Of a DNA stretch of 64,000 bases, positions 29,089 through 56,000 are shown one piece after another. Numbering within the stretch: position 1 is the first letter of the stretch; each line of letters opens with the position of its first letter. The notes under the pieces were generated by a model. It was not told where the DNA came from. It searched no databases and saw only the letters and a program-made list of their open reading frames with translations. A program made the translations under genes and the position numbers. Origin of the DNA: Planctomycetia bacterium (GTDB taxonomy: Bacteria > Planctomycetota > Planctomycetia > Pirellulales > PNKZ01); assembly GCA_021413845.1 (NCBI GenBank), contig JAIOPP010000004.1, forward strand, positions 1 to 64,000. The letters run 5' to 3'.

Positions 29089-32000
29089 TTAGGCTGTTTC
29101 GGTTTCTGCTTCTTTTTTGGCGGCTGCTTGGCGGCGTTTTTTCCAGCGGAGGCCGAAGCCGATACCGGCGATGCCCATGAAGAGCAAGCTGCCCGGTTCC
29201 GGAACCGCGGAGTAATTGAGATAGAGATTGCTGTCGACCAGCGAAATGCGGAACGAGCCGGTCAGGTCGGTCGGGGTGAGCCGAGCCGTGTTGATGTTGA
29301 AGTAATTGTTGATGTCCCCATCGATTGTTTCGTTGTAAGCGTGGCCGTTGAGGGTCACTGCACCCGCATTCGCGAAGAGCCAATGCAGCGATTGAGTCCC
29401 CGTGTTGAGGGACCCCGGATCGAAGTAAGGAGCCTCTCCTTCGTGCGTCGCGTCCATCATCGAGATGAGGTTGAAGTTGATGCGATTGGCCGCATCGACT
29501 CCGGTCGCCTGTAGATCAAGTATGCCGGTGCCGCCGGGGAGTAGATTCGAGACGTACAGGAGATCCCATTCGGTGCCGGAAGGATTGAGGGCGAGGTGAT
29601 CCGCAGGATCCACGGAGTTGAGCCCGCGAATAAACTGGAAGTTGAACCCGCTCCCCGCCTGGAAGACGGCCGAGCCCGCGACGACGTACCCGAGGCCTTC
29701 GTTGCTCGGGGCTTCCGCATGCGGTCCGTCCAGCCCACCCGGCGAGAACACGCCGCCGCCTTGCACGGTCATGGTCGTCGTCGATCCTTGAACGATGAGC
29801 GTGGCCGTGGTCGCCGGCGACACGGGGGCGATCGTATAGGACTTGGCCGTGGTGAGCGCACCGTTGTAGGCGACGAGCGTACCGGCGTTGACGGTCACGT
29901 CCGGAGTAAACGTGTTGCCGGCGTTAGCCAAGATCGTGGTGCCGGTTCCCGCTTGGACGAAGTGTCCGCCGGTCGAACCGCCGGCGGCGCTGTTCGCGAT
30001 CGTATTGCCGAGAACATACGTGCCGGACTGATTCATCTTCAGCGTTCCGGCGTCGGCGATGGTGATGGCGCTGAGGTTGCTGGTGTAGTTGACGGAGTCG
30101 CTGCCGCCGAGCGTTCCGCTACCGGTGATCTCTAAGACCCCGGCGGCGATGTCGGTGTTGACGGAGTAGGTGTTCTGACCGCTCAACGTCAGCGTGCCGA
30201 GACCGTCCTTCACCAGGCTGAAGGAAGAGCCCCCTTGCATCTGCAACGAGGCGGAGATGACGGTATGTCCGGAGCCTTCGATGGTGAGGTTGCGGGACGA
30301 ACCGGTGACTTTCGTGCCGGCGATGGTCAGCAACTTGGTGCTGTCGTTGTGCCAAGTTTGGCTAAGTCCGAGCGCGAGGTCGGTGCCGATCGTGACGTCG
30401 CCGGTACCGGCGGCGACGTCGATGGCGCGAGCGACGGTGATGCCGGTATTCAACAGACCGTTCAATTGCAAGACGATCGGCGAGCTGTTCGGAGACGTAC
30501 CCGGTTGGATTCCGATCGGGTTGTTCAGGCCGGTGCTGCCGTCGAAGTTCAAGCTGTTGATCTCGAAGCTGTTGTCCAGCGTCGTTAACAAGTTGGCGGC
30601 GTTCGGCGCCAACAACGAGCCGAAGAAGACGTTGGTGCGAGCTCCCGGAACTTGAAGCGTGTTCTCGGTTCCGGCGACGGTCGTGGTGAAGTTGGAGAGG
30701 CTCGTCCCTTCGCGGAAGCTATTCCACGACTTCGGCTTATCGGCGATTCCGCCTCGCCAGTAGGCGACCGTCGGAGCGGAGATCTTGTAGTAGGTCAAAT
30801 CGAGGGAATTCGAAGTTTGCTTCAACGCATACTGGTTCCCTTCGATCGAGGTCGGGCTGCCCGGTGCAAATCCGAACGCCGCGGCGGGGTCGGAAGCGCT
30901 GTCGAGTACGAAGAAGTTGATCAAGTGGAGGACATCCACATCGTCGTTGATGCCCGTCTTAACGGAGCGATGGATTTGATTGGCCAACGGATTGAGCGTG
31001 ACATAGGCGCCGCTCGCGTTGAGCCGGAGTTTGCCCGTCACCTGGATGAGATCGACTGCGCCGCTGGAGCCGCTGGAACCGAGATCGAAGAAGAGGTTCG
31101 TCTTGAGGCCGAAAGGATCGACGTCGCCGAGGGTCAAGTTGGTGGTTGCGGTCGAGGAATCGAGGATCGTCAAGGTGCCGATCGTCCCGCTCCGGTAGTC
31201 GCTGAGGTTCCGGAGGTCGATGTTGCCGCCGCCGGCAACGGTCACGTTGGTGTTGATGGCGCCGTTGGAGGCGACCAACGTCGTGCCGATGGTGCCGACG
31301 CCGGACAGCGTTCCGCCGGCGTTGACTTGGACTTGCGTGCCGTTGACCCCGCCGACGGTCCCGCGGATGGAACCTTGGACGCCGTTGACTCCGTTGACGC
31401 CGACGATGAGCGCGCCTTCGTTGACCGTCGTGCTACCGCTATAAGTGCTGGCTCCACCCAAGGTGAACGAGCCGGTGCCGTTCTTGATCAAGAAGAGTTT
31501 GTTGAACAACGGATTGAGGGCCACGGTGGCCGGAGTCGCGGTATCGGTGAGGACGCCGTTGAAGACGCTCGGCTCGGTATTGTTGAGGGTTAATGTGGAA
31601 GGGTTCGTGGCGTTGGAGTTGGTGATGAAACCACCACCGGCGACCGTTCCGTCGGAGAGCCCGGCTAGGGTTTGGTTGGCTCCGTTCAAGTCGTAGCCGG
31701 CTCCGACGTTGATCTTCAACGGGCTATCGGCCGCGATCGGGTTTTCGCCGAACGGCACCGCTCGGACGAGCCCTTCCTTGATCCAGACGCCGGCCCCGTT
31801 CCACGAATCCTGGCTGCCGATGATCAACGTTCCGGCCCCGTCCTTGATGAGGAAGTCGACCCCTGCGGCGGCCGAAGTCTTGATGGTGCCCAACATGCTC
31901 AAGGTCACCGAAGGATCGGTCACGGTGATGGTGCGCGACGCGGCGCCGAAGTTGACGGAGTTGTCGAAGGCGATGTTGGCGTTGGCGTTCGTCCCCCCGA

Positions 32001-35000
32001 TCGTGAGATTACCGTTGAGGGTCACGGCCGTTTTGATCAAGGTCGGGTAAGGGTTCGCCGGCGTGGCGACGAAGCTCGAGAGCGAAGTCAAGCCGGCGTT
32101 GAGAATGTCCGGATCCAAGTAGGTCGCTCCGGTCGGCAACTGGGTTCCGGCCGGCAGAACCGAACCGGTCGGAGCCATCGAGCCGGCGGCGACGACGGTC
32201 CCGGCCCCGATCACCGTTCCGGCCGTGACGACCGCATTGGCGGCGATTTGCGTCCCCGCCGCGAGCACGGTATTGGCGTTGAAGATCGTCCCGGCGGGGA
32301 CCGTCGTGCCGGCCTTGATCACGGTTCCGGCCGGAACCACGGTGTTGGCGGCGACGACCGTTCCGGCGCCCAAAAGCGTGTTCGCTTGGACGACCGTATC
32401 GGCCGCGACTTCGGTCCCTATTCCGAGCAGCGTACCGGCGACGACCACCGAACCCCCGGCGACCGTAGTGTTCATCGACAGCACGGAATTGGCCGCGACG
32501 ACGGTTCCGTCGGCGACGACCGTACCGGCGCCGAGTTGGGAGCCGGCGACGACGACCGACCCGGCCGGAATCGTACCGCCCATCGGAATCACGGTCCCTC
32601 CCACGAGGGTCGTGGCTTGGATGGCGGTCGCGTCTTGTTGGATCGTCGTATCCTTCGTGACGGTCGTCGTGTGTCCGAGCGTATTATCGCCGCCGGCGAG
32701 GGTCGTGGCCCGAGCGACGGTCGCTTCGTAGGTCAAGGTCGTTTGCGGCACGAGAATCGTTAATTGGGCGACGAACGTATCGCTCCCGAGCACGGTGTTC
32801 TGCGCGAGCGTCGTCGCTTGGTTGACGAACGTGTCGGTGGCCAGAGCCGTGTTCTGGGCCAACGTCGTCGAAACTGCGAGCGTCGAGTCGTAGAAGAGTC
32901 TCGTCGAGGCGGCGAGCGTGACCTGGGCGAACGTCGTGTTCTTAAGAAGCGTCATGGCGGTCGCGATCGTCGTATTACCTTGGAAGGTCGTGTTGTTGAC
33001 GAGCGTCATGTTGTTGAGGATCGTCGCGGGAGCGGAGAGCGAGCTGTTCTGAGTGAGGGTGACTCCGCCGACGCCGACGATCTTCGTCGCGTCCCGTTTG
33101 CCGATCGTGAACGCTCCCGCGCCGAACGGGTTGATCAGCGGGTTGGCGTTGCCGAAGAGCACGGTTCCTTCGCGGAGATTGAAGCCGTTGGTGTTGGCCG
33201 TGAAATACGGAGTCGCGCTGCCGCTGGCGGCGGCCGTCAGCAGCAAGCCGCCGGAGCCGGACTTCGTAATCGGAGAAGTCGAGTTGTTGTTCGGGGTGCT
33301 GAGGAAGCCGGTGATGTTGAGGCCGATCGGCGAGACGCCCGTGACGTTGATCGTCGGCGTACCTGAATTCACAATTCTGAGGTTGCCGGTGATGGTCGGC
33401 GTGAAGGCGAAGTTGTCGTTGTTCGAGACGATCGCCGTAGCCGGGACGGTCAAGGTCAGCGTGCCGCCGGTGCTCACGTTCGGGGCGCGATTACCGCCGG
33501 TGTTGTTGAACGTCAGGCTCTTCAAGCTGTAGATCTGACCGGCTCCGGTCGGCGCAACCAACGTCAGCAGCGCGCCGCCGTTGAGGATGACGTCCGTCGC
33601 GGCGTTGATCTGTTGTTGCACCGAGGTGTTCTGCGTCACAGTGGCGTTGTTGATCGTCAACGTACCGGCGGGGATCACTCGACCCGCATCCGGGAAGATG
33701 AGCGTGTTGCCTTGGAACGCCGCGAGGGTCAACGTCCCTTCGTTCACGATCGTGTTGCCGGTGTAGGTGTTCTGAGCCGTGATGATGAGCGTGCCGGGGC
33801 CGGCCTTCACCAAGCGGGTCTTCGCCCCGAGGGTGTTGTCCTTGATCGCAGCTTCGATCGTCGTCGTCACGGCGGCGGCGCTTTGATAGGCCACCAAATC
33901 ATAGACGCCCGTCGTCGCCGCACCGCCGGTCGTCAGAATCCCGCGCGTCAGCGTGGTGGTGTTCACGCCGACCGACGAAGCGGTCGTCGTGGTGAGGAGG
34001 CCGCCCGCGGTGAGGTTCAGGGTCGTCGCCGTCGCCGTCGTACCGGTAAACGTGATCGGCGTGCCGGCGGTGTACTTCAGCGAGCCCGCGTTCGTATACG
34101 CCGAGACGGCGAACGTGGCGGCGGTGAGGTTCACGGTCGACGAATTCTTCGCCAATTGCGATACGATCGTGGTGCTCGTATCGATTCCGCTGATCAAAGG
34201 CAAGTCGTAGAGCGGCATGCCTTGCGTTCCCAACGCGCCGATTCCCTGAGCGATCGCATAGCCGGCGTAGTCGATGCCGTTGACGATGATGTTCGGGCTC
34301 AGTCTCGTCAAATCCAACGTCGACGTCAGCGTGGAATTGAGTTGCGTGACATAGAGTCCGGCTTGGTTGAAGCCGGGCTGGCCGAGCACGACCCCGGAGC
34401 CGGTCACGGCGACGTTGAGCGTCGCCCCGTTCGGGAACGCCAGGTTGCCGATCGTCACGCGGGTCGTCGTTCCTTGATTCGGCAAGCCGTTCAAAGTGAT
34501 CGTGTTGGCGCCGGTCATCGCGAGGTTGTTGATCACGATCGCGGCGTCCATCGAACCGCCCGCAGTCAACGTCAAGGCTGCTCCATCCATCGTCACCGGC
34601 GCCCCGGCGGCGATGCGCGTCAGGTTCGCGCTGGTCGGGTTGAGGCCCGATTGATCGGTCGTCAACGTGCCGTAGTACAGCTTGATGGCGCTCGACTGGG
34701 CGACCGAGCCGGAATCGCGGAGAGTCAAGCCGCCCCCGCGGACGATCGTTTCTCCCTGATAGGTATTCGTGCCCGTTAACGTCGTCGTCGCGTTCCCCGA
34801 GCGCGTGAACGACAGGCTGTTCCCCAAGATCACGCCCCCGAAGGTGCTGTTCGCCGTAGCGACGGAGGTCAGCACCACGTTCCCGGCGACCGAGCTGCGA
34901 ATCGTGCCTCCCATGTTCGGCAGCGGATTGATCGACGACAAGGTGCCGATCGCTTGACTCTTCCCCATGAGATCGACGAAGGTCGTCGCCGCCGGGCCGT

Positions 35001-38000
35001 TGATAGTCAAGGCGGAGATGCTGATCAAGCCGGTGTTCAACGGGATCACGGCCAGCGTGTTATCGCGGCCCGAGTTCAAGTTCAGCGTACCACCGTTCAC
35101 CGTCGTCGTGCCGCTGTAGAGAGCGCGACGATTCAAGTTCAAGATTCCCTCGTCGGCCTTGACCAAGCCACCGCTGGCTCCCAGGCCGAAGAACGCGTTG
35201 ACGTTCAACGTGGAATTCTTCAGGACGTGCAGGAACGGCACCGTTCCGGAGTTGGTGGTAAAGGAGCCGACGTCGATACTCGCCGTGGTTCCTTGCAGCA
35301 CCAAGACCGCCGCCGAGCCGCCGAGCGTCTGCGTCAGTAGGCTGCCGGTACGGAGGAAGCCGCCGTAGCCCGGATCGGTCAGGCTGGACAACAGACCGAG
35401 CGAGATCGGCGCAGTCGGGGTGGAGACACCGCCGATCGTCAACGTGCTGACGGTGGCGTTCCCCTGGAGCTTCGACCCGGAATTATCGTCGTTGGTGAAA
35501 ATTCCACCGTTGATCGAAGCGGTCCAAGCCGTCGTCTGGGTGCTCAACTCGCTATTGCCGGGCTGCAAACCCGGGGCCGCCAAGTAGGTCATCGGACGGA
35601 TGTTGCCGGTGCCGTCCTTGACGAGGAAGCCGGTCCCCGGCCCGCTCGTGGAAGCATCGACGAGGACCTCCGGACGAATCGTGACGGAGGACAAGTTGAG
35701 GTTCGTGGACGTCGCCAACGAAGTCATCGTCACGACGGAATTCACGGAACTCGCCGCACCGCCGCTCACGCCGGCGATGACCATCGTGCCGGTGTTGTTC
35801 AGAGTGACCGTTGCGATCGCCAACGTGGTATTGCCGGAGAGCTCGATCCGGTTACCGCCGTTCTGCGAGGTGAAGTTCACGACGTTTTCGGTGACGGGCG
35901 TCGAGCTCCCGACGATCTTCAACGTTCCCCCTTGCAGGAACAGAGTTCCCGCCGCACCGATGCCGAGCCGATCTCCCTTGGCTTGGCTCGTGTTATCGAG
36001 CTTCAGCGTGCCGCCGGCGTTGACGACGAAGGATTCGACGAAGGCCGGCGTCACGACGCTCGTAAACCAAGAGGCGTCGTCTTGGAACGTGAGCCCGCCG
36101 CCGTTGACCGTGATCGTCCCGGCCCCGACCGTCGTCGTTTGCGCTTTCGTCAACTTCATCTCACCGGCCCCCACCTTCTGCAGCGAGATGCCGCCGAGGC
36201 CGGCCAAGAGGGCGAGGTTCGCGTTGGGCGCGCTGAAGCGGTTGAAGAAGCCGGCGAACGTCGTCGACGTGCCGTCGAAGCCGACCGTCAGCGTAGTGGC
36301 GGCGGCCGAGTTGTGCACGGTGCTGTTCGCGTCGCCGGCGAGCGAGCCGATCGTCGTGGCCGAGCCCGCCAAGTCGAGCCGCGTATTGGCTCCCAACGAC
36401 AAGGCCGACAAGCGGGAACCGCCGTTGGCGACCCCGATCCGCAAGCCGCCGGTATTGTCGCCGAGCGTCAAGTTGCCGGAGAAACCGGCTTGGGCGGTCA
36501 GGCCGAGCAGGCCCCCGCCGGTCTTCGTGAGGTTGGCGCTGCCGATGGCCCCTTGCAGGTTCAACACCGCTTGCAACGGCAATGGATCGACGGCCCCGTT
36601 GACGTTGATCGAGTCGACGCGCACGGTCTTCGTACCCGAACCTAAATCGATCCGCCCGGCGATCAAGGCCGTAAACGGCGCGTTGGTCGAGGTCGTGACG
36701 ATTCCCCCGGTGCCGATCGTCAACGTCCCGGCCGAGCCGGCGGTCAGAATGCCGGCCGTGTAGGTATTGATCGTCGAAGCGCTGCCGCCGTTGTTGTTCA
36801 ACACGACCCCGGCGACGGCATTGTCGCCGAAGAGCGTCACGGTCGCGTTGCCGTTCACGGTCACGATGTTGTTGTGACCGATCGCGTCCGCGCCGTAGAA
36901 GTTCACGTTTGCTCCGCTGACGACCAAGCCGCGCGTCGGATCGGTCGCGTTCGGAATGCTGCTCCCCGCGGTGACCCGCAACGTCCCTTGGCTGACGTAC
37001 GTGCCGCCGCTGTAGGTGTTGTCGGTGCCGGTCAGCATCATGATGCCGGTTCCGGACTTCGTGAACGCGGTCTTGCCGCCGGAGGTGTTATCCTTGATCG
37101 ACGAGTTGATGATCATATTCGCGACGAACGAATAATTGCCGGTGTTATTCGTGGCGAGAGCCTTGTTGCTGATCTTCAGCTGCGTTCCGTTGGTGACCTC
37201 GGTCACGGTGGTCCCCACCTGAATACCCGTGCCCGTCACGATCATGCCGACGAAGACATTCGCCGTGGTCGTCAACGTGAGGACGTTGCTGCCGACTTCG
37301 GTGGCCGCCGCACCCGCCGCGACGATCACCGGCGCCCCCGTCCCGACCGCCGTATACACGCCGCCGCCGACGCCGCCGATATTCGTCGCCGTAGCGTTGT
37401 TGCTCAATTTCACCTGCGTCCCGTTCGTCACCTCGATGATCGTGCTCCCCGTCGGGATGCCGAATCCGGTCACGGTCATGCCGAGCGTAAGTCCCGTCGT
37501 GGAGGCCAACGTGAGGACGTTGGAACCGCTCACCGTGGCGCTCGGCGCGGAGGCGTTAGCCTGAGCGGTCGTCGTCGCCGTGTTGTAAGCGACTAATTCG
37601 ACCAAGCCGGTACCGCCCGTCGTGAGCACGCCCCGATTGTTGCTCGTCCCGACGCCGGTCAACCCGATGATCGTGGGATTCGTAGCGCTCCCGGCCCGCA
37701 GCAAACCGCCCTGTTCCAAATTCAAAATCGAGTTCGGCGCGGCGAACGCGATGTCGTTCTGGAAACTACCGGCAATCCGCAACATCCCCGTCGTCGTCGT
37801 ACCGGCCGGCAACGTCGTGATCGTGTTGAGGCCGACTAAGAGATTGGTCACGTTGCCGGTGGCGAAAGCAGCCTCATAGCCTTTAAAGCCGACGGTGCTG
37901 AGAGCACCCACACCTTGAGCGGCGTTGTATCCGGCGTAATCGTTGCCGTTGAGGACGGCCCAAGCTCCTAAAGTTTGCGTTGCCGCGTCCATAACTAAAG

Positions 38001-41000
38001 GAGTGCTGAAAAAGAGCCGCGGCTGCTGTCCGGCCAAGGCAAGAGTACCGGGAGTAAAGTTCACCGTGGCACCCGCATTACGAGTCAAGCTCGCAAAGGT
38101 GAGATCGGTCATGTAGTAACTACCGAGCCCTCCGCCGGCGTTGACGGTAATCGTGCTCGCACTCTCTGCCAACGTCACTGCACCCAATATTTCCGTGCTG
38201 TAAGTGCTCGGGCGACCGTTCAAGGTAATCGTACCGCCGGCAAGGGAAATCGGCGCCACATCGTTCACACGATTCGAATTGTTGATGAAGAGGTTGACAC
38301 TGCTGCCATTGTTCTGAATCAATAGCGCGCCGTAGTTGATCGTGAGGGCCGAGGTATTGGAGATCGTACCGTTGTCTTGCAGAGTGATCTGGCCGCCATA
38401 GATGGCAGTCGGCCCGGTGTAAGTGTTGTTATTCATGAATATTAAGGTATTAACATTCACACGCGAGAAAGCGACGTTGCCTGTAATATTCCCCGCCCAG
38501 TAGTAGTTCGCACCATTGGTAATGATACCGCCGCCGGGAACGGACGACGTGATCGTGCCGCCGCCGGTGACCGCGCCGTTATTGCTGCTATAGAAATTAC
38601 CGGCGTATTGATAACTCCCGTTCAGGTCGAGCGTGGCACCCGCATTCACCGTCAACACTTGGTTGGGCAACAGGGTGTTATTGCCGAAGGCGAACTTCGT
38701 CGTCCCGCCGTTGAGCGTCGTCGCACCGGTATAAAGCTGCTGCGCGGTCAAGACCAGCGTACCGCCGAGATTCTTCTCCAACCCTCCGGTACCGGTAATC
38801 GAACCGGTTACGTTGAGCGTCGTAAATCCGCCGACGTGGAATAACCCTTCGTTAGCTCCGAAGGCGATCCGAGGGACGCTCAACGTATTGGTAACGGGAG
38901 TACCGCTGGTGCCGCCGGCGACCAGGAATGCCCCGCTGGAGACCGTCAGAATATTAGCGATGTTGTCGCCGGAAGAATTGATATTCAATCCTGAGCCGGT
39001 GATATTCACCGCGTTGACGGTTCTCGGAGCGTCGAGAGTCGCCGCGTAACCGGCCGTCACTTTGATATTGTCGGTCCCGGCAACGGCCACGCCGTTGATG
39101 GTCGTCGCGCTCGTCGGATTGTAACCCGTAAACGCCGTGATACCGGAGCCGCCGTAGGTGGCGAAGTCGACCGAGAGATCGGTCGTGCCGGTGGCGTTCG
39201 TGAGCGTCACGACGGCGCGAGGAATGATCGAGTTGACTAATGTCGGTGTCGTGACGCCGAAAGTGACTAAGTTTTGAGTCGCCCCAGCTACGCCCATGGC
39301 GATATTCGATTTGAAGTTGACGGCCGAGCCGGGATTGATCGCCAGCGACCCGTAAACCAACTGCGTGATACCGCCGTGATTCTCGAGGTAGATCGTCGAT
39401 TGGCCGTTATAGGTATTCGCGATCGGCAAGCCGATCGTGAGGATGGCCGCCGCAACCGCCGTCCCTTCGGTCGTACCGGCCGCAGCGCCGATCAGATTGA
39501 GAGTAGCGCCGTGGAGGTTAAGAGGCTTATTACTACCGAGCCGATTAGGAACGTTCGAACTCAAATTAAAGTTATCCAACGTCAGCGTGGCACCGCTGTA
39601 AACCGTAATACCGGCCGTGTTTTGCAGTTGGCCGCTGCCGCTGAGTGTGTTGACGCCGCCGAAGAAGCCCGTAATGCCTGTGTAGGTACTAACGCCCGTT
39701 AAAGTTAGAGCCCCCGGACCGAAGTTATAAAACTGAGATCCGGTTATACCAGCAGGGCCGTTGATGATGGGACTACTAATCAAAGTAGCGCCCGAACCGG
39801 CGAAGCCGACCCATTGATTGTTAATGGTGGCGAGCTGGACCGGTTGGCCGCTGAAGGTCAACGTCTGACCTGGAGCCAGATTGTTCGTGAGAACTCGATT
39901 GCTAGCATTGCCTTGCAGGCTATAGGAGATGCCGGTGGCTGTGTTACCGGTGAACTCGATGGACTGACTACCGGTGATGATGCCGTAGCTATTATCGAGA
40001 CGCAGACCTTGGGTAATCGCATTACCACCGACCATGTTGACCGTGGACTCGATGCTACCGCCGCTGAATGCAATGAGGCTGTTGGCACCCAACGGGCTGA
40101 GGCTTCCCGAACGGCTGAGAATGACGCGCCCCTGGCTGATCGTCGTCGAAGTATGGACTGTCGAAGCCGCCGGAGTTCCACCGAAGGTAACCGTACCGGA
40201 AGTATTGATAGTCAACGCGATTTGCCCTCCGATACCTGTGAAGGCACCGTTCAAGGTCGTATTTCCGGTTCCGACGACCGAAAACGGGCGTGCAACGGCA
40301 TCGAAACTGTAGAAGTTGTTGTTGATCGTCAACCCCGTGCCCGCAGTAATCATGTTGGCGAGCGTCCATGGATTCGACTGCAATCCATAGAGGAGTCCGT
40401 TAAGCGTAATCGGGCCTGCTCCCGAAAACGTACCGGTTGAATTGGGGTTGATCCCTACCGGCTGCGACAAGGTCAGGCCGGCAGAATTCGTGGAGTAGAT
40501 ACCGGAGTTAGAGATAATCAGACCGCCGATGACCACGGGGCCGGCCAAAATCGTAGCGTTGCCGTTGGCAATGGAGAAAGTCGTCGGACTCAGAATAGTA
40601 CCGATAGACCAGCCGTAACCGGCACCCGACGCGGCGAAGAGCATACCGGACACCAAGCCGGTGGTTGTGCCCGAAGTCAGGGTAATGATATTCGCGGCCG
40701 ACGCGGCAGCGACGAGCCCCGTCGGGCCGACCGCACCTAAGGCGGTTGGACCACCGATGCCCAGGAAGCCGGCATCGACGCGCACACCACCGGTGAAGGT
40801 GTTGTTGCCCGTCAACTCCCAATTGCCCCAATCCGACTTATAGACACGCAGCGCTCCTCCGTTGTCGGCCAGTACGGAAGTGATCCGGTTGGAATCCGTA
40901 TTGAGCCCGTAAAGGTTTATTTGTTTGGAACCGGCTGTGAGATTGGACATGTTCGTAAAGACGAGTGCGCCGCTTCCGTTGGATTCGATCGTGGCACCCG

Positions 41001-44000
41001 TGGGATTGACCAACCGCGTGACGACTTCACCGGTACCGACGTAAGTCAGATATCCGCCGCTCAGAGTTAGAGTGCCGGAGGGATCTCCGAAAGCGCTGGT
41101 AGCCCCGCCACTACCGATCGATGTCACGATGGTGTCACCGGCACTGATGTTCGTATTCCCGGAGTAGGTATTAGCACCTGTCAGGTAAAGTACGCCGCCG
41201 CCTGTCCTGGTGAGGCCGCTACCAAGTCCGCCGCTGATGACGCCGGACACGGTTGCATAGTCGGTGAAGGTCGTTCCGTTATCGTCGACTTGAATCGTGC
41301 GAACGCCACCGCCGAGATTGATGTTGTTGGTGAATTCGACGTCGGACAAAGCGGTAGCGGAACTAAGGATGAGAGTTCCGGTACCGTTGCCGATTCCGCC
41401 TTGACCCCAGAATTGCGTTCCGCCTGGGAGCGTCACGGTGAGCTTGGAGCTGCTGGCGGAGAAACCACCACCGGCGTTGAAACCCCACTGAACTTGACCA
41501 GCCCCCGAGCCGATAGGGCGACTGAACGTGCCGTAAGTTTCTATGACGCCGCCGGCAAGCACGAGGTTGCTGTTGGCGGAAAGAGTCGAAGTGGTGCCGT
41601 TCGTTACACGGAGCGAGCCGCCGATCACGGTGGTGACACCGGAGTAGTTATTATTCGGATTACCGAGAATCCACAGGCCCGCGCCGGACTTCGTCACGTT
41701 GAGCGGGGAACCGTCGATGGTGTTGTTGACCAATCTGATGTCGATCTCGTTGTCGCCGGTCGAGTTGCCGGTAAGGATCAGCGTCTTCGAGCCGGTGTTC
41801 GCGAAGCCGATATTGCCCGTATTGCTCAAGACGAGCGCGGCATTATTTTGGGCAAGAGTGCCCAGTACGTTGTTGCCGAAGTTTCCGGAGGAATCGATAG
41901 CCCCGCTGCCACCCAAGCTGAAGAGCCGGTCGATCGAGATCGTCGGGGTCTGCGTGGCTTGGTAGACCAACGTGTTGGCACCCGTATATTGCAAGGTTCC
42001 CGTCGTGCTGCCCGTGCCGAGCACGATGCTCCCTGCGTTGTTCGCCACATTCCCCATGCCGATCGAGCTCGGAACGCCGATGTTCGCGAGCGAAGTCACG
42101 GCAAGTACGCCTTGGAGGACGGTGGTCACGCCGGTGTAGGTGTTGACCCCGGTCAGGTATTGGGTTCCGGTGCCGTTCTTCAGAACGTTCAGCACGCCGC
42201 TGCCGTTTTGCAGGGCTCCGGAGAAGACACCGTTGCCCGTGGTGACGTTGAAGTAACCGATGGCGAGCGTCGACGACACGCCGGCACCGTTCGTGATGAT
42301 TCCGGCACCGTTCAGTGCGCCGATCGTGGTTCGACCGCTCGGGCCCGCGCCGTTGAGATCGAGCGTAGCGCCTTGGCGAATCGTGGTGATGTTCGCTGCC
42401 GTGGTGATCGAGCCGAGCGAAGCGGCAGGGCCGGAGAGACGCAAGACCCCTTCGTTGATCGTCGTGTTACCGGTGTAGGTATTAGCACCGCTGACGATGA
42501 GCATGCCGGTTCCGGCCTTCGTCAACGAACCACCGAAGCTTCCGATCGGAGCGCTGATCGTCAGGGCGTTATTAGCATTCGTACTGCCGTTGACGATGAT
42601 CACCGTCTCACCCGGGTTGGTTGCGATGCTCGTTCCGGCACCCACACCGACGTTGCTGTTCAACGTAAACTGCGTCAGGCTTTGAATCGAAGCGACGGTC
42701 GCTCCTGCCGGAATGTTGGGGTTACCGTAGATCGGCATCCCGACGTAGAAGCTCAACGTCGAGCCCGAGGTTAGATTAACCAAGGCAGTATTCGCCACGG
42801 TCGTAGCAAGCACGAGCGGTGCGGCACCGATCGTGTTTTGCGGGCCGCTGGCCGAGATCAAGGCACCTGTATTGGTGTTGTCGAACAACAAGCCGCCGGC
42901 ACCGAGGGTGATCGGGCCGTTGAGGCGAAGTTCCTGATTAGCGACGGTCGGTGCGAACTTCAGCGTGTTGATCCCGGTCACGGCAGCGCCCGTGGTGAAA
43001 CTCGACGTAAGCAAGAAGTTCGCATTCGAGATCGCGGGTCCGACCAAGTTCGTATAGGCCGGAGCATTCGCACTCCCCAACGCCACGACTTGATTGCTCG
43101 TGTTGAGCGTCGCCCAGTCGGTGCCGTTGACGGTGGCATAAGCCCGTCCGCCGCCGACGACATCGCTCAAAAGGCCGTTGAAGGTCGCCAGCGAGCTACC
43201 GGTGCGGAAGCCGATCGTCCCCGTGCCTGGGACGAAATTCAGCGTGGCGCCCAAGGTACGATTGCCGAGGTAGCCGAAGGTCAAGTTCGTCGGCGTGGCT
43301 CCGTTCGTGATCTGTACCGTTCCCGCACCGGCCGAGGCCGTGAGGATACCGGCGAGTTCCGTGCTACCGCCGGCAAGCCCGACGTAGTTGAAAGTCCCTC
43401 CTGCGTAACCGTTACCGCGGATGGTATCGGCGGCAAAGACAAGATTGGAGCTATCGTTCAGCGCATCCAAGCCGGTTAGAGTAGGCTTCATCATGACGGT
43501 CCCACCGGCGATGGTCAGAGGACCGGCGAAATTACCGATGGCGACAGGGGTCTGCGTGCCGACGGCGGCGTTATTCGCCAACACAGCCACGTTCGTCGTA
43601 TTCGCAATCGTAATCGTGCCCGCCGACGTGATCTGGCTGATATACCAACCGGCATTCGCCGCGAGACCGGCACCGCTAATACTCTGACCAGGCACGAGGT
43701 TCGCGGTGCTGGCGACGGTGAGGACGTTGCCCGTGTTAGCCGTCACGCTGAGCGCTGCCGTCGCACCGGTGACGGTGCCGATATTGAGGGTACCGAGAGT
43801 AATGGCTGCGGCTTGGCTAATCGAAAACTGATTAGGTGCCAGGATCTGGGATATGACCGTGCCCGGCAAAATGCCCGTGCCGGAAACGGTTTGTCCCACG
43901 ACGAGCCCGGCAGTTCCGGTAGCGCTGGTCGTCGTTACGATTTGGCTCGAAGCACTTGCGTTGACCCCCAGCGCACTATTGGCCGTTCCGATGGTCGTAG

Positions 44001-47000
44001 CGGCCGTGCTTGGCCCCGTGATCTGCCAAGTGCCGCCGTCGACCTTAGTAACGCCGGTGAGATCCGACGCGTTCGTGATGAACCCTTGGATGTCGTTGAT
44101 GCCGGTATTGCTGCCGCCGATAACGAATGTTTTCGCACCGGTACCGTTCGCTGCGATATTCTGCGGCAATACCAACGCACCGGAACCGTTATTGGTGAGA
44201 ATGGCATTTCCGACATTCAAGAGCAGCACCTTATTGGTCCAGGTCTCGCCGGTACCGGTGTAGTTCAACGTACCGCCGTTAAAGACGACGCGCCCGGCAC
44301 TGTTGGCATTCAGGGCTGCGACGCTGGAGATGTTCAAGGTGCCTGCCGTCATGACGGTCGAGCCTGTGTAGGTCGAGCCTGTGTAGCCCGGAGTAGTTCC
44401 GGTCATCGTGAGCGTGCCTGTGCCGGCTTTCGCAAAGGCGTGATCGGCTCCCGACGCAAGGACACCGCCCGTGATGACCGTATCACCGGTCGCAGCGAGG
44501 GTATATGTCGTCGCCGTAGTGAAGATTTTGTTCCAGATATTCCCGTTGAACGTCGACGTTCCGTTCGTGCTGATATTGAAACCATCGTTACTGCCGTCGG
44601 GGGAAGAGCCGGTGTATGTAGCAAAGCTAAAGCCGATACCGTTACGTCCGGAAAGCGTCGGAGCACGGGAGATGGTCTGTATGTAGGAACCAAACGTAAC
44701 GACTTGACCTTGACCTAGGGGGACCGAACTTCCGAGGGCGCGATCTACGAACAACGTGGTATTTCCATGCGCCGAATTGTAGTTTCGGTTGATGAATCCC
44801 GTAGGGTTATCGGTGCGGATTTCCCAAATACCGCCGTTTCCTCCGATGGTAGCTGCTTCGGCACCCAATTGTGCATTGTCGGAGATTCGAATCGTACCGG
44901 AATCGACCCGCCAAACGCCGACGAAGGTGTTATTCATACCGGTGATGAGCAGCGTGTTGTTAAAGCCGATACTGCGATTGCTTTTATAAACTCCGGCAGT
45001 CCCGATAGTACCCCCGATTACTTGACCGGCCAGAACGACATTGCCGGGCCCACCCGTAATATAGAAGGAATTACCGGCGTTGACGTTGAGAACGCTGCTT
45101 GCGGCAAAAGTCATCGTGCCTGCGGCGGAACCGAGGCGGACTTCGGCTGAGTTGGAGTTAGCCGTGATGACTCCCGTGTAGCTATTGTTGCCGATATTCG
45201 TAAGCACGTGACCACCGTTGGTCAGGTTGCCGGTGCCCGACAAACCGAGATTCTTATCGAACGTCATGCCGACGGCACCGAGTCCACCCTGCACGATCAA
45301 ATTACCACCGGCAAGCGAAAGAGCGTTGGTGCCGAAGACGGAGACGAGCGAAGTGTTACCCAACTGCCCGATGTCGGTGATAGCCAAAGTTCCGCTGACG
45401 ATGTTGGTCTGACCGGAATAGTTGTTGTTGGCGTTGGTGATGTTGAAGAATCCGCCACCCGCGAAGTTAAGACTACCGGTACCGGAAATCTGGCCGCCGA
45501 AGGTTGTTGTGACGCCGGTGTTGGAATTGTTGTAGATGTTGCTCGGGCCGCCGATGTTCAACGAGGCCCCATTTCCGAGGACGACGTTTCCTCCGGACGT
45601 GCCGCCACCGGTCAACGTCTTAACCGTCTGGCTGAAGCCGTTGAGATTAAGTGTCGCACCTGCAACGTTGGCGAGAATGATGTCCGAAGCACCGCTTAAA
45701 GCGTTCACGGATCCCATTTGCAGCGTCCCCGCGTTGATGCGTGTCGCTCCGGTATATGTGTTCGCGGCAAACGGGAAAGTCGTAGCGATACTCGAACCGG
45801 CCGTGACTCCCAAACTGGAAGAGAGCGTAATCTGCGTAGGGCTATCTACGCTGAGGATTTGCGTACCGGCCGGGATATTGGCATTACCCGTGATGGTTTG
45901 ACCGGCGTAAAGACCGGCGGTGCTCGCTAGCGTGACGATCGCACTTCCTAGCGTGGTCGTTGCCGACAGTGAAGCCGAAGGCGAAAGAACGACGGTACCC
46001 GTGCCGTCCTTGACGACGTTACCGGTTCCCGTGGCGAGAAGGCTGCTGATCGTAAAGATGCCGGTTCCGTTCTGGTGGATATAAAGATCCGCATTCGGTG
46101 CGCCGATTCTGCCGCCCGTCAGCGTCGCGTTTTGATCCCCTACGAATTGCAAGGCACCGCTGGTGATGGTGAGCACGTTGGTAGCGAGGCCCAAGTCGGT
46201 AATTTGTCCGGCATTGCCCGTAGCGTCGATGGTAAGCGAATTGACGCTACGATTAGTGACTGCGGTCCAGAGAGTGCCGGAAGTTCCCAGAGTCGTGTAA
46301 TCGGTATTCGCACTGTTCGAGTTGGTAGCCAACGTAGTCGCGGTCGTGCTATCGAAGCGCACGATGTCGCCCCCAACCCAACGAGCCAAGCCGGTGACGT
46401 TGCCCTCTTTGACGAGAGCGTAGCCGAGAATGTTGTTGGTGCCCGTGGCACTGCTCGGCGCGGAAGCAGACTTAACTCTCGACCCTGCAGTAACCGAACT
46501 GTAGTCGATCAACAACGTCGAGCCGGCGTTGCGGGTCCAGGTGTTGCCGATCGTTAAATTCGTAGCACTACCTCCATCGTGGATGGAGATCGTTCCGATC
46601 GAGCCGGCCGTGATCGCGAGGCTAGCCAAGGTTTGGCTGCCGCCGGCGTTTAACGAATTCGTCACGTCGAAGATACCGCCGCTGAGCGTCAAGGCCGAGG
46701 CCGGATTCAGCAAGCCGCCAGCCAGATCCAACACCAGCGTGCCGCCGTTGACGATCGTGCTCGTGCTATTGGCAACCGAACTTTTCACGGTCAACGTCCC
46801 CGCGTTCACCGTCGTAGCTCCGGTGTAGGTGCTCGCGCCGGTCATCAACGTCCAAGCACCCGCGCCGGTCTTGACGATGCCGCCGGTGGTGTTGTTTACC
46901 GGGCTCGCCAAAAAGCCTGTGCCCGCTCCACCGAGAGTAAGAGCGAAGGTATCGCCGGTGATGGCTCCGGCGTTGGTGATGTTGAACGTGCTGCCGTTGT

Positions 47001-50000
47001 CGACCGAGATCGTGGCCGCGGAGCCGAGAATGATCTGAGCGGCATAGGTATTGGCAGTTCCTCCAATGCCGACTAAGGCACCGGTCTGTCCGGCGGCGGC
47101 GCCCGTTCCATTAAGCGTAAGCACTTCGGAGGCGATGTTTCGGCCGCCGGAGAGAACCAAAGATCCGCCGCTATTTACGACCGTGCCCGTGGCAAGGGAT
47201 CCGGAGGTTCCCAAGGCGCTATCGATAAGCACGCGCACCGTACCGCCGTTGATCGTCGTGATACCGTTGTAGTTATTGAGGACGGTCAGATCGAGAGTCC
47301 CCGGGTCGATCTTCGTCAGCGCGCCCGCACCATTGATTCCATTCGTCGTGATCGTCGTATTACCTGAGCCGCCGAGCGTCAGGACGAACGAGCCGATATT
47401 GACGTTCTTCAAAGTGAACGTGCCGAATTCCGAAGTGATCTTCGAGTCCGAGCCGAGCGTGATGGCTCCGTCGTAGCTGTTGCTGCCGAGACTGCGCAAC
47501 GCACCGATGTTGCTGGCGCCGGTATTGTTGATGACCAACGCTTCCGTGATCGTTAGTGGATTAGGAACCAGAGTGCCGCTGACATTCAGCATCGTAGCGC
47601 CGTCGATTTCCAACGAACCACCGATACCGACGACCGTGCCGAATGCGGTCGTGCCGAGGGCGCTGTTGTTTTGGATGCGAATGGCACCGGCGGTAACCAC
47701 CGTCGTGCCGGTGTAGGTATTCGCGGCGGAGAGGATGGCCGTTCCGGTACCATCTTTGACGATGGAATTGTTGGAACCGTTGATCACTCCGGCTCCCACG
47801 ATTCCTTGAAGCTGCATCGGCCCCGCACCACCCAGCAGCAAGTCGGTTCCGGTCGTGCTGTTGATACCTCCGGTGATCGTGAAAAACCCGGCGGTGGAGT
47901 TGATACGCGCACCCGTTAAGCCGCCCGCGAGCGTGATATTGCCGCCGTAAGAATTCGGGCCTGCGGTGTTCAGCAAAGCGCCTCCGTTGCCCGCACCGAG
48001 TCCGGTAATGATAAGCGCTTCGGCGCCGATCATGACCGCTCCCTGAATATTGCTATTGTTATTGAGTTCGAGGGTAGAACTAGCGTAAACCGTGGTTCCG
48101 TTGAGCGTCGAACCGAGCGAATTGGAGTTATGTAGTGAAGTAACATTCGTATTCGTATTAATTATCGTCGGCCCCTCATAAGTGTTACCACCGCTAAGAT
48201 TGAGCAGATTCGCGCCGGTCTTGATGAGGGCTCCGCTGCCGCTGCCGCTGATGATACTTGGAACACTAAACACTTGGTTCGCGGCATCAAGAGCTCCGCC
48301 CGCGGGGCCCAACGTAATCCCACGATTCGGGTTGAGAATCACGGCATTCGTAGCAATGCTCAGGCCGCCGCCGTTGAGCAAGATGTTGTCGCTCACGACC
48401 GTACCCGGAGCGGCACCGAGGCTCGCATCGTTGCCGTTGGCACCGTAAATCTGAATGTAGCCGCTTAAGAGCTGAATGGCCTTCGAGCCGGTCAGAGATA
48501 GTGAGCCCGCGTTCAAGCCCGTGATAGCCAAAACACTGCCGGCCGCTCCCGCCTTGATCAGCTGGTTATCCGTGCCGGCGGTGGTGATGATACCTGCAAA
48601 AGTCTGAGTAGTACCATCCAGGACGATGTTGCGGCTCACACCAGTGCCGGAACTGTAGAGAATCGGAGCAGCGAATGTAGTCGCAGCGCTTGCGGAGGTG
48701 CCTAAGGTGATCGTCTTGGCATTGTTGCCCAGAGCAACCGGAACGTTGATCACCAAGTTTGCTAAGGTGTTGGTGAACGACGTGTTATTTCCGCTGATGG
48801 AAATGTTACCGATGCCGATAGCCGTGCCGGAGTTGAAGTTCAAGCCGCCTTGTTGAAGGTCGATGCTGGTCTGTCCGGCCGTGCCGAAGTTGTTCGCTCC
48901 CGTCAACGTCAGCACGCCGATGCCCGTTTTCACGAGACTACCTGTTCCCGTGATGGCGCCGACGAAGGCGGCGGGGCTGGTGCCGTCGGTTCCGATGGTG
49001 AGGGTGCTGGCTCCCAGGTTCAAGGACGAGCCGGTGACGCCGGTGAGCGATCCGAGCGTAATGTTGTTGCCGTTCAGGTCGAGCACGGCACCGGTAATGG
49101 AAAGGTTCATGGCCGAGTACAGGCCGAAGGCCTGCGCCGATCCGGCTTTGAGCGTAGTAGCGGTGCTGATGTTGGTCGAGCCGGTGTAGGTGTTGGTGCC
49201 CGAGAGGATCAGGGTACTGGCAGCACCCGCTGCCTGTGCCACGGTCAGGCCGGTGGGGCCGCCGCCGGAGTTGCTGATCTTGCCGCTGAGTTCCACCGTC
49301 ATCGCTGCGGGGATGGTGAAGGTTCGCGTGGCGACCGCGGCCGTGGTGTTGAGATCGAAACTGTTTCCCAAGACGACGCTGGTACTGTTGGTGAGGAGCG
49401 TCACGCCGCCGCCGGTCGCCGGGTTGGTGAACGCGAAGCCGATGCTCGCGTCCGGAGCTACCAAGGCAGTCCCGGCGGTACCCAAGGTCAAGGTCGGGGC
49501 CGACCCGGACAACGAGACCGTCGTGGCGGCGGCTCCCGTATTCAAGAAGAACGCACCGGTCGGAATCGTTAAGTTGCCGAAGATACTGGCGTTGCCGCCG
49601 CGGAGTTCCAACGTGCTGCCGCTGACGAGCGTTATCGCTCCCAAAATCGCATTGACGCCGTTCAGGTCGAGCTTGCCGGTGCCGTTGATTGCGATCGTGC
49701 TGCTCGGGAAGTTCGTGCCGTTGAGGAAGGCGTTCGACAACTGGTTCACGCCGGAGCCCGCTGCGAACTGGATGATACCACCGGTGTTGATCGTGACGGT
49801 GCCCGAAGGAATCGTCGACGTCGTCGTGCCGGTCTTGCCGAGGATCAGCGTCGTGGTCGAGCTGGCGTTGGCGTTACCCACGACGGTCGGGCCGGTGAAG
49901 TTGTTCGTCTGAGTTCCGGAGAAGGTTAACGAGCTGTTGCCCGTTAAGCCGGCGACGGTCAAGCCCAAGCTGGCCGGCGTATTGGAATTGAGAATGCCCG

Positions 50001-53000
50001 AGAAGTTCGAAGTGCTGCCGCCCGCCGGAGCGAACGTCAACGTCGTCACCGTGGCGCTGGTGTTGGTCACCAAGCCGCCGCCGCTCAGGCCGGCGAGCGT
50101 TTCGCCGATGCCGGCGAGATCCAAGATGCCGGTCGCGTTGACCGTCACGAGAACTCCGGTGGGAAGCGGATCGGTGCCGGTCGCGAATTGCACGACCTGG
50201 GTCCCGGTTCCATTGGTTGGTGCGCCGATGGTGAGGTTGCCGCCGATCGCATTGACCGCTCCGGTCTTGCCGAGGACCAACTTGCCTCCCAACACCGTCG
50301 TCATTCCGGTGAAGGTGTTGGCACCGCCGCCGGAGATCGTCATCGTGCCGAAGCCGGACTTCGTCAAGTTGCCGGTGGCGCCGCTGATCACGCCGGCGAA
50401 CGTCGTCGAGCTGTCGTCGGCACCGGTGATGAGAGTACCGCTGCCGAGCGTCACTGTCGGATTGGTGGTTCCGGCCGTGGCGGACAACGAGCCGATGGTC
50501 TCAGTCGTATTATTGAGATCGAAGATGACCCCGGCGACGTCCGCCAGGAGAACCGGCGAATCGTCGGAGATCGCGGCCCCGCCGGCAATCCGCAAGGTGC
50601 CGCCGTTGATCGTCGTCGCCCCGGTATAGGTGTTCGCGCCGGTGAGCAGCAAGACGTTTCCGGCGACCCCCGTCGCTTTGGTCAGGCCGATGCCGTAGCC
50701 TTGGATGCTCCCGTTAATCGTCAGGACGTCCCCGGCGTTGGCGAGCGTGATCGTCAGAGCCGAAGGCATGATGATCGACGAGGCCGTGATGGCGTTGAGG
50801 TTCGAAGCTGCTCCGACGGTCGTCGTGATGGCTCCGCCGGTGAGGACCAACCGGCCGCCGGTGCCGCTGCCGTCGAGGTTGATCGTCCCGCCGTTGAGCG
50901 TGATCGTGCCGGTGGTGTAGAGGGTGCTGCCGACGGCTCCGCCGCCGTTGGTCACCGAGCCCCCGAGCGCGGCGTTGGTGCCGATGTTGAGGGCCGCGAT
51001 CGTCTCGGATTTTCCGTTGAGGTTGAAGAGGCCGGACGAATTCACCGTCACCGCCGCGGTGTTGATGATCTGCTCGTTCTGATCCAAGCGGACCTTGTCG
51101 GCGCCGGCGCCGCCCGTGTTGTCGCCGATGACCAACGGTCCGGTGATGGCGACGCCGCCGTTGGCCGCGTTCATCACGCCGCCGGTCTTCGCCAAGACCA
51201 GCGTTCCGGCGTTGACCGTCGTGGTCCCCATGTTGGCCGCCGTCGGGAAGTTGTTCGCGAGGATGTCGCCGCTGAAGCGCACGACGCCGGTGTTCACGGT
51301 ATCGGCGGCGATGCCGATGTTGATGCCCGTCAGAGCCACGGTGCCCGTCAATTGCGCTTGCACGTCGAGATCGAACCCGCTCGACGTCGTCCCCGGCGCG
51401 ATGACGAACGTGCGAACGCCGCCGGTGCTCCCCGTGCCCGCAAGATCGAATTGACCGCCGATCACGGCGGTTGCGGCGCTGGCCAGGGTTTGAATGCGCA
51501 CATCGGCATTGGCCGCCACGGCGATGATCCGTGCGTTTCCGGTCAGGTTCGTCCCTTGCAAGGTCAGGACGTAATCGGCGGCGGCGGCGGCGCTCGGCGT
51601 GAGCGTCAGGAAGGTCGACAGCGGAGCGTTGATCGTACCCGCGCTGTAGTAGAGGCCGCGGAGCGTTTGGGCGAAGTTGTTGAAGTTCACCGTTCCGCCG
51701 TTGACGTACAAGTTGGCGTTGGAACCGATGCCGCCGGCGATGTCGAGGTTCAGGGTGCCGACGTTCGAGCCGCTGTTGGCCGCCACGACGAGATTGCCCA
51801 GAGCCGCGATATTGACTCCCGCCGCATTCGACCCGACGACGCCGATGATCGGCGTGGCGTTGGCGATCGCGAGGCTCAAGGTTCCTTCCGTCACCGTCGT
51901 GCTGCCGGTGTAGGTCGAAGCGGTCAAGATCCGCATCGTCCCCAAGCCCCGCTTGTCGATACTGGTGACGGCGCCGGTACTGGTGAGCACCGTGCCGGTG
52001 TTGATCAGGAAGTCGATCGGCGCCGGACCGTTCTCGACGGTGATCGTCCGGGTCAACGCCGTCCCCGAGCTGTTGAGGTTGATCGTCGAGCCGGCCGTGC
52101 CGGTGATGATCGACTGATAAGCGCCCAAGGTCGTGGTACCGGACGTCAGCGCGGTCGGAGCCAGAGCCGTAGTCGGCGCCTTGATGTAGATGCCGCCCGT
52201 GAGAGTGGTGTTGCTACTGAAGGCGAGCGAGGCCGCGGCGTTGTTGAGGCTGATCGTACCGCCGGTCATGGTCAAGGCGTTCGTCCCCGTGCCGGCCAAG
52301 GTGAGCGCGAACCCACCGGTGACGACGACGTTGTTCACGCCCGAGCCGTTGATGGCGTTGACGGTCACGCTCCTGACGGTTTCCGCGGCGCCGATGGTGA
52401 GATTTCCATAGGTATTGGTCGCGTTGACCACGGCCGTTCCGAGACCGTTGATCGTGACGTCGGTGGCATCGTTGATCACGTTCGCGGTCGTCGTGTTCAC
52501 CGTACCGCCGTTGATGATCAAGCCGCCGGCGCCGGTCCCGAGGGCATCGGTCCCCGCCGTGGCGCTCAACGTCAGCGTCCCGGCGTTCACGTAAGTGGCG
52601 CCGGCGTACGTGTTGCTGACGGTACCGTTCAAAGTCAGGCCCCCCGGGCCGCTCTTGACGAGCGAAACGCCGGCGCCGGTGATGCGCGAGCTGATCGTCA
52701 AAGCAGCGGCCGGAGCGATGCTATGCACGAACAGTTCGCTCACACCCGAAGTCAGATCGCCGCCGCTGATGACGTTGGCGGTCGCTTGCGAGATGAGGCC
52801 GCCGGTGCCGAGCGTCAACGTCTGCCCGGCGGTGATCCCGACCGTGCTGGTGCCGCCGTTGATGTTCAAGGAGTTGACCGAAATCGTGTTGACTCCGGCG
52901 ACGCCGGCCGTGAGCCGCACGTTCTTATCCGCAACAAAGGCGTTGGTGCTGATCGTTCCGCCCGGGTCGAACCCGGCAGTGGCGAGCGAGCCGATGCCGG

Positions 53001-56000
53001 TCGCCGTGGTCGGCGTAGCGACGTAGGCCGCGAAATCGACGACGCCGGCGCTCGTCGGCTGGGCCGTGGCCCAACCGCCGATGATGCCGTTCGTCGTGCC
53101 CGGAGCCGTGGTGGTCACGAGGATTTGCGGATTCGCACCGACCAGGCCCAACGTACCGTTGGCATTGGCGGGAGCGAAGTTGATCGTGGCTCCGGCCGCC
53201 CGGCTGGTGTCGATGCTCGCCAAGTTCAACGTCGCGGCCACGGTGGTGTTCGCGGTCCCCCGACCGACGGTGATCGCGTTGGCGCCGCTCGCCCCGAACG
53301 TGATCGCCCCGAAGCTCTGCGTCAGAGCGACTCCGGCGGCGTTTTGCGACAGAACGCTCACCGTACCGCCGCGGAGATCGACGGGCAGGCCGGTGGTGAA
53401 TCCCGCGCCGCCGCCGATGCGGTTGTCGATGTTCGCCAACGTATTGTCGACGAGCAACACGCCGTTCTGATTGAGCGTGATCTGCGGCGTCCCGGCGGTC
53501 TGCCAAGAGCCGGTGCCGACTCCCGTGGTCTGACCGAACGTCGCCCGCGCGTTGGTGATCGTCAGCGTGCCGCTGAAGTCGCTCGCCGTGGCACCCGTCA
53601 AGTTCAGGATCGGCGTCGTGGTCGACATGCTGCTGACCAGCAAGTTGCCGCTGCCGGTGAGCTTGCCGGCGATGGTGATGTCGCGGTTCGTGGTCGAAAG
53701 AACTCCGGCGACGTCGCCGAGGAAGACCGTCGAGGTCGAGCCGGATTGGAGCGTCACGGTTTTGCCGCCGGCGTACGTCGGCACTACGCCCGCCGTCGCC
53801 CCGGCCAACGTCCCGCCGTTGAGCGTGATGTCGTTGGCGTAAACCGTGGCGACGTTGCCGCTGGTCAAGACGCCGCCGGCGTTGATCGTGGCCGTACTGC
53901 CGGCCGCACCGAGCGCGTTGGGGGCGGTGACCGTGCTCCCCAGTTGCAGCACGCCGCCGTTGACGGCCCAATTGGCGAGCACGTCCGAGGTGTTCGCGGC
54001 GAGGATCACTTTCCCCTGGCCGCCGATGTTGATCGTCGTATTGGCGCCGCCGCCGGTAAGTCCGCCGGTGGTCGTGCCGGCCAAAGGACCGAAGGCGGGG
54101 CTGCCGATCGTGAGGATGTCGCCGGTGGTGAAGGCGGTCGAACCGGCGAAGCTGGTGCCGGTTTGAATGTTGACGCTCTTGCCGGCCGTGACGCCGATCG
54201 GGTTGACGAGCCCGGTGAAGCCGGCGGCGGCTCCGACGCCGCGGAGCGTCGCACCGTCGTCGTTGAGGACGATGGTGCCGCTGGTCATCGCGACGCCGTT
54301 GATTTCCAAGGTGCCGGCGGCGTTGATCGTCGTGGCGCTGGTTCCCAAGGCGATGACGTTGGCCGTGCGGAGGATGCCGCCGTCGACCGTGATCGCGCCG
54401 GTCGTGCCGCTCGCGGCGCTGAGGTTCAAGATCCCCGTGCCGGACTTCTTGAAGCCGAAGCTCCCGCCGAGCTCGTTGATTTGCGCGAGTTGCAGGAAGG
54501 CGTTCGTGCCGACGTTGAATTCGGAGTTGCCGGTCAAGGTCGTGAGGCCGGTGAAGGAGAGGCCCGCCCCCGTGGCAAAGCCGCCGATTTGCGTCGTCGT
54601 GACGCTCAGGGTGTTCAAGCCCGACGTGTTGCCGCCGAGCGACAACGTCGCCAAGCTGTGGAGGATGGCCGGGGCCGAGTTAATCGGCTGCGCGCCGACC
54701 GCGGCATAGCCGGTGATGCCGGTCAGCGGATCGACGTTGATCGTCGAACTCTTCGAGACGAGCGTGTTCTTGGCGTAGGCGACCGTTGCGTTGCCGCGGA
54801 GATCTAAGGTGCCCCCGGCGAGCGTCAAGGCCCCCGGCGCCACGCTGTTGCCGAACGCCCCGACGACGGTCCCGCGCAAAATCCCGTCCTTCACCGTCAC
54901 CGTGCCGGTCTGCGTGTTCGCGAGCGACAACAGCATCAAGCCGGCGCCGTCCTTGGTGAACGAGCCGTTCGTAACGGCCATCGCCACGGTCCCGAATTCC
55001 AGGCTCGCGCCCGTGCCGACGTTGAAGGTCGTATTCGTATCGGGCGTCAACGTCACGATGCCGGTGAAGCGCAGGCCGTAGCCGTTGGCGCTGGTGATCT
55101 TCAGGGTCTGGTTTCCGACCCCCATGTTCAGCGCGGCGAGAGATAGAATATTGCCGCTCGCTCCGCCGTCGACCTGGTCGACGTTGATCGTCGCCGTCGC
55201 GTTCGACTCGACGATGTTGATCGCGTTCCCCGTGCCGCCGCCGAAGAATTGCGTCGTATTCGCCAACAGGTTCAACGTGGTACCGTTCGCCAGCCAAATC
55301 GGCGCGGCCGCCCCCGTCGCGGCGCTCAAGGTCTTCGCCGTCAGCGAGCCGGCGTTGACGAAGATGTTCGCCGTGAGTGTGTTCGCTCCGGTGAGGGTAA
55401 AGTCTCCGGCGCCGACTTTCATGAGCCCGGCGGCCGTCCCCAACGGAGCGCCGCTGATGATACCGGCGAACGTCTTTGAGGAATTCAAGCCGACCCCGCT
55501 GCCGAACGTCAACGTCCCGTTGGTCCCCAAGGCGATCTGACCCACGCCGCTCAAGGAAGCGACGGTCTGATTCCAGTTGGCCAAGTTAAATGCGCTGGCC
55601 GTGGGGCTGTTGACGATCAAGTCCGTGGTGGTCGGCAAGACGTTATTGAAGCCCAGCGTGATTCCGCCGTGCGTCAAGGTCGTGCCGCCGGTGTAGGAGG
55701 TGGGGTTGACCAAGGTCTGGATTGCGGTCCCGACCTTCACCAGGCTTCCCGAGCCGGTGATCGTCCCCGTGTACGTGGCGGCGAGATTATTGGCGCCGAT
55801 CGTCAGCGTGGCGCTACCGACGCCGAGATTGATCACGCCGTTCACCGTCGGCACGCCGGCGATGAGCGGAGCGGTCGGTGCGCCCGGGATCGCGATCTGC
55901 GTACCGTAAATCGCGGTCGTGGTCGAGGCCAGCGAACCGATCGTGTCGCTGACGCCGTTCATGTTCACCACGCCCGACTGGTTGAGCGTGAGCCCCGCGT

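Follow-up and report, generated by a model that had tools for sequence, protein, structure and literature searches.

A block of six-residue repeats in the window (the whole stretch of DNA that was analysed, 64,000 nucleotides) is probably a non-catalytic solenoid of the hexapeptide-repeat (LbH) type with ∼17 coils, specific to this lineage, that sits inside one PATR module of a PEP-CTERM giant and serves as a rod or spacer. Hexapeptide and PATR repeats are both known families, but we found no described protein that combines them: a limited literature search returned nothing relevant on PATR repeats or adhesins combined with hexapeptide repeats. If confirmed, the block would be a long non-enzymatic hexapeptide solenoid that has arisen within another solenoid in a short evolutionary time, for which two homologous sites without the block are available for comparison, and it would offer a concrete object for testing junctions between solenoids of different handedness.

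Position and composition of the array

The array has 52 clear hexads, and a degenerate one after them, ATYLDP, extends to position 32110 (Table 1). Its periodicity is strong, as the period-6 power of V, I and L in 300-residue windows of the translation is 46–49 in the array versus at most 4.5 elsewhere in the giant. Both observations bear out an earlier note on this DNA, made from the letters and translated frames, which had placed a hexapeptide array of about 52 repeats at 32113–33063 between strand repeats; scored PATR repeats indeed lie on both sides.

Table 1. Features of the giant open frame and of the hexad array within it.
Feature	Coordinates	Strand	Detail
Giant open frame of PATR strand repeats with PEP-CTERM end	29089..63999	minus	≥11,903 codons, counting ∼800 bases past the window end; contig lacks the N-terminus
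PEP-CTERM sorting tail (AVPEPGSLL, hydrophobic stretch, basic cluster)	29089..29208	minus	PF07589, 25.8 bits, cut-off 20.7
Nearest scored PATR repeat, C side of array	31402..31491	minus	40.2 bits
C-side flank, same PATR-type module resumed	31900..32109	minus	Joined flanks compared with G003
C-terminal half, 27 hexads of T-V-V-x-A-G type plus degenerate ATYLDP	32110..32613	minus	Hexapep 49.6 bits; core period p = 0.0015 (see text)
Array of 52 clear hexads	32128..33063	minus	VTLTQN (33063) to TQLPTG (32128), 936 bp
N-terminal half, 25 hexads of T-T-L-x-x-N/D type, two one-residue register shifts	32614..33063	minus	LbH_EIF2B sub-threshold; core period p = 0.0025 (see text)
N-side flank, PATR-type module	33070..33399	minus	With the C-side flank, matches one contiguous module in G003
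Nearest scored PATR repeat, N side of array	33724..33813	minus	42.9 bits

The composition gradient along the array that had been pointed out is real, with mostly T-T-L-x-x-N/D hexads in the N-terminal half and T-V-V-x-A-G hexads in the C-terminal half. The two register shifts, TTFAQ- and TTLAGG+D, delimit a stretch of the N-terminal half. The hexad rule first read from the array, [LIV]-[GAED]-x-x-[STAV]-x, is sustained along it: the hydrophobic core position is L, I, V, M or F in 50 of 53 hexads (29% by composition) and the i+4 position is S, T, A or V in 48 of 52 (54% by composition), but the second position is G, A, E or D in only 24 of 52. G, N or D is also frequent at i+3, most of all in the C-terminal half. 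Third codon positions have a GC fraction of 0.82 across the array, close to the 0.81 of the frame as a whole, so in this respect the array resembles the remainder of the gene.

Family assignment and coil period

The C-terminal half matches the Pfam Hexapep model at 49.6 bits (E 2.4e-13, cut-off 27) and also matches LbH_EIF2B. Hexapep did not match the array when it was reversed or, in one control, when all its residues were shuffled. An exchange of the first and fourth columns, which breaks the rule, lowered the score to 12.7 bits, and reordering whole hexads left 47.0 bits; swapping the i-1 and i columns, both of which are mostly V, L, I or T, left 29.3 bits. Among seven other hexad arrays, two match Hexapep and five do not, so six-residue repeats do not all score. 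By sequence, the nearest solved proteins are LbH proteins, led by a gamma-carbonic anhydrase (E 9e-8) and followed by DapD-type and LpxD enzymes.

The N-terminal half has no Hexapep match and scores 20.6 bits against LbH_EIF2B (E 4.5e-4), below threshold. A profile derived from the C-terminal half scores it at 15.1 bits, with shuffles at no more than 7.2 bits (292 of 300 scored) and other windows of the giant at no more than 9.0; its reversed sequence scores -0.3 bits. The hexapeptide-repeat assignment made earlier is therefore strong by profile search for the C-terminal half and weak for the N-terminal half, which on its own stays below the cut-off yet has the same three-hexad core period.

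This period, which the earlier note had overlooked, lies in the core column, where the residue recurs every third hexad: in within-half shuffles the N-terminal half gives p = 0.0025 and the C-terminal half p = 0.0015, per-half values to be read with the six columns and several lags that were examined, and the two halves combined give 2/20,000. Listed by phase, the core residues are LLLLLLLLA, LFFLVVVV and IILLLLLI in the N-terminal half, and LVVVVVFVA, ILLLLILIL and IVVVVVIVL in the C-terminal half. Core-column periods of two, four and five hexads showed nothing, and third codon positions, taken as a synonymous-site check, showed no rise at 18 residues. The known LbH unit is a triangular 18-residue coil with a rise of 0.47 nm (PMC12081914). 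The three-hexad core period is, indirectly, what a three-sided prism of 18-residue coils would produce, and it reaches into the N-terminal half; we infer that this half folds within the same prism as the C-terminal half. The ∼17 coils of the earlier reading agree with a core column whose period is exactly three hexads in each half; at the published rise, such a solenoid would be ∼8 nm long.

The block thus resembles the LbH family (PF00132; LpxA, LpxD, GlmU, gamma-carbonic anhydrase) in its hexad rule, in G, N or D at i+3, in its three-hexad coil and in the significant profile and sequence matches of its C-terminal half. Unlike the LbH enzymes, it has no catalytic domain, His set or long loops and sits in a giant, probably extracellular protein; its ∼17 coils would also make it longer than those enzymes are known to be. 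No catalytic or metal-binding His set or enzyme domain was found in the block, and enzyme models score far below their cut-offs. The 317 residues include a single His and 15 charged residues but lack Cys, which makes catalysis unlikely.

DNA-level repeat signal

On the array, TRF reports fragments only, with scores of 55–57, which places the repeat at the level of the protein rather than of the DNA. Repeat identity at lags of 18–108 bp is just 0.8–2.2 standard deviations above that of codon-resampled copies, with a slight excess in the N-terminal half (z about 2 at 18 and 36 bp), and second codon positions remain alike between repeats as third positions come near background. We had considered recent growth by slippage, since expansion by slippage or unequal exchange was the origin first suggested for the array, and rejected it: the identity of the repeats at the DNA level is near what the amino acids alone explain, and recent slippage is therefore unsupported.

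Handedness and alternative folds

The AlphaFold2 single-sequence model of the C-terminal half has a mean pLDDT of 72.5, a pTM of 0.63 and a regular pattern of two-residue strands. The 50 PDB matches listed for it do not include an LbH enzyme, and right-handed helices (TibA, Ag43, pectate lyase) make up most of the top ones, with TM-scores of 0.2–0.45. A viral library gave as its best match a Pandoravirus protein named 'LpxD incomplete domain' (TM 0.54, 35% identity, E 1.5e-3). Proteins with this name, or named 'trimeric LpxA-like motif', are among the closest predicted structures in that library and, going by their names, are hexapeptide arrays outside complete enzymes; they differ from the block in being viral and outside PATR giants, and the comparison is one of predicted models only. 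A 457-residue model that includes the flanks has a mean pLDDT of 47.6 and an uninformative fold search, and the N-terminal half was modelled at a pLDDT of about 25–30.

AlphaFold2 is known to yield confident but unrealistic beta-solenoids from perfect repeats (PMC11795689). Since the models also lack an LbH match in the PDB, the left-handedness of the block rests on the hexad rule, by which its coils would be left-handed. For the left-handed fold and the switch of handedness that were proposed at the outset, the evidence is thus divided, with an LbH-type rule in their favor and mostly right-handed structural neighbors, at low TM-scores, against them. A left-handed prism of ∼17 coils standing in line inside a right-handed PATR solenoid, with two changes of handedness and a left-handed segment that had arisen within a genus, is accordingly a tentative picture, to which we give somewhat less than even weight.

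Alternatively, the PATR-type helix could run on through the hexads as a regular solenoid, right-handed and three-sided, without any switch. The PATR repeats that flank the block are related to right-handed passenger domains, and the Foldseek neighbors of both AlphaFold2 models are mostly right-handed helices. We nevertheless consider this unlikely, as the TM-scores in the PDB list do not exceed 0.45, the C-terminal half matches Hexapep and LbH_EIF2B, PATR does not match the array at E ≤ 1, and neither half matches bactofilin at E ≤ 10.

More improbable still is a flexible or disordered low-complexity linker, in which the hexads would be the relic of ancient repeat growth instead of a fold. Such a linker would fit the low-complexity composition and the failure of the N-terminal half to give a confident model, but it sits poorly with a hydrophobic core kept at 50 of 53 positions, with the three-hexad period of that core, and with a pattern that is held at second codon positions when third positions come close to background. 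A solenoid that binds ice or carbohydrates through a flat Thr face, as the earlier note had imagined, is very improbable: the block is Thr-rich and its outward i-1 positions are Thr in 18 of the 25 N-terminal hexads, but the other Thr column, at i-2, points inward by the rule, i-1 is mostly Val in the C-terminal half, and this outward column has no three-hexad face specificity (p 0.59 and 0.15 for the two halves), which leaves such a face unsupported.

Origin of the block

Another genome of the same genus, G003, encodes an 8,905-aa giant that is collinear with this one on both sides of the block: residues 9110–10310 on the N side align with residues 7059–8200 and the C-side chunk aligns with residues 8215–8475, so that ∼15 residues take the place of the block. 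On the N-terminal side of the block, 1,200 residues share 47% identity with this relative over nearly their whole length, and the joined flanks align across the site with the block absent (phmmer). In a multiple alignment with a 7,330-aa giant of G003, the flanks likewise align across the site without the block. Collinearity is patchier over longer ranges (phmmer --max on chunks), and the N-side flank found no ortholog in G001 or G002 at E ≤ 1e-10.

Since two G003 giants align through both flanks without the block, this lineage most likely gained it by insertion or local expansion, a simpler course than a loss in G003, for a site seen in one other genome. The block would then have entered one PATR module, or grown there in place, after the split from the G003 relative. 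Outside the block, the whole giant is like the PATR (TIGR02601) strand-repeat PEP-CTERM proteins, and giants of G003, G002 and G005 have the same architecture; the relatives' giants that were examined differ in that none has a six-residue block, their period-6 power being at most 8.7 in every 120-residue window versus 32.2 in this block. Contig C11 of G003 (L265–L268) carries a pair of adjacent PATR/PEP-CTERM giants, of 12,608 and 8,905 codons, on the same strand.

Similar arrays in other genomes

We searched for homologous arrays in 57 relatives (E ≤ 0.001), in 392 sampled genomes from the phylum (E ≤ 1e-6) and in 397 genomes of the order (E ≤ 1e-4); in the two large samples 5–9 candidates per genome were scored, and most matches in the 397 genomes were judged by frame length alone. 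The matches that were read were ordinary hexapeptide enzymes, simple tandem repeats, unrelated frames (some of them probably antisense) and one protein of G557. A protein query against the genome-contig collection gave no match, and in hexad pattern scans of genome and viral contigs a PATR-like motif, defined by a crude regular expression, occurred in none of the matched frames listed.

The G557 protein (L310, same order, 3,303 aa) is large and probably secreted and resembles the block in its short hexads, GTVLKAGTILKAGTVIPKNTTF, but these are few and PATR was not seen in the stretch read. Hexad runs of the TTVAAGTAVTAG type in phage proteins are very similar to the hexads of the block, but the two that were tested (L176 and L246) have no Hexapep match. 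Short runs, TTVAAGTAVTAGTSVTA, occur on phage contigs L176, L188, L208, L224, L230 and others, apparently in tail proteins.

The giant protein and its genomic setting

The open minus-strand frame that contains the array covers 11,636 codons from 29089 within the window and 11,903 codons to the contig end at 64802, with PATR repeats all along it (37 Pfam matches at E ≤ 1e-3). Its PEP-CTERM tail was recognized by profile, and the hydrophobic stretch and basic cluster were read off the sequence. No autotransporter C-terminal beta-barrel was found at E ≤ 0.01 (40000–63999) or E ≤ 0.001 (29089–39999). By its C-terminus, which is PEP-CTERM, the giant is not a type V autotransporter, and this corrects the earlier description of the frame as an autotransporter giant.

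The genome has two exosortase genes (PF09721 matches of 114.9 and 113.7 bits), one of which scores as XrtU, and the next two genes downstream of the giant encode DUF1501 proteins. PEP-CTERM proteins are associated with exopolysaccharide-producing bacteria of surfaces, soils and sediments (PMC1569441). The giant is probably handled by an exosortase and located at the cell surface or in the extracellular matrix, and within it the block would most likely be a rod or spacer that is stiff and neutral. For both location and role, this is our best-supported guess.

The N-terminus of the giant may lie on contig C163, where a candidate of 3,307 codons begins at an ATG. The ends of contigs C4 (L003 4794–4802) and C163 (L297 1–9) have nine bases in common, a short overlap, and joined in frame they would give the PATR motif ..FTKAGAGTIRLSGTNTF... 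An exosortase gene with an XrtU C-terminal domain (L297 14174–16012, minus strand) lies a few kb upstream of the candidate N-terminus on the same strand. Elsewhere in the genome, a 918-aa frame with a PATR repeat (L299 1857–4610, plus strand) matches part of the NCBIfam autotransporter serine peptidase model over residues 462–740, at 112 bits and far below the cut-off, and is possibly a true autotransporter. Within the giant, repeated units of ∼70 residues of type VTLASTAGLYAGQTITGNANIPAGTQILSV, which by eye are unlike PATR, recur on the minus strand at about 45980, 43900, 42800, 37600 and 37300.
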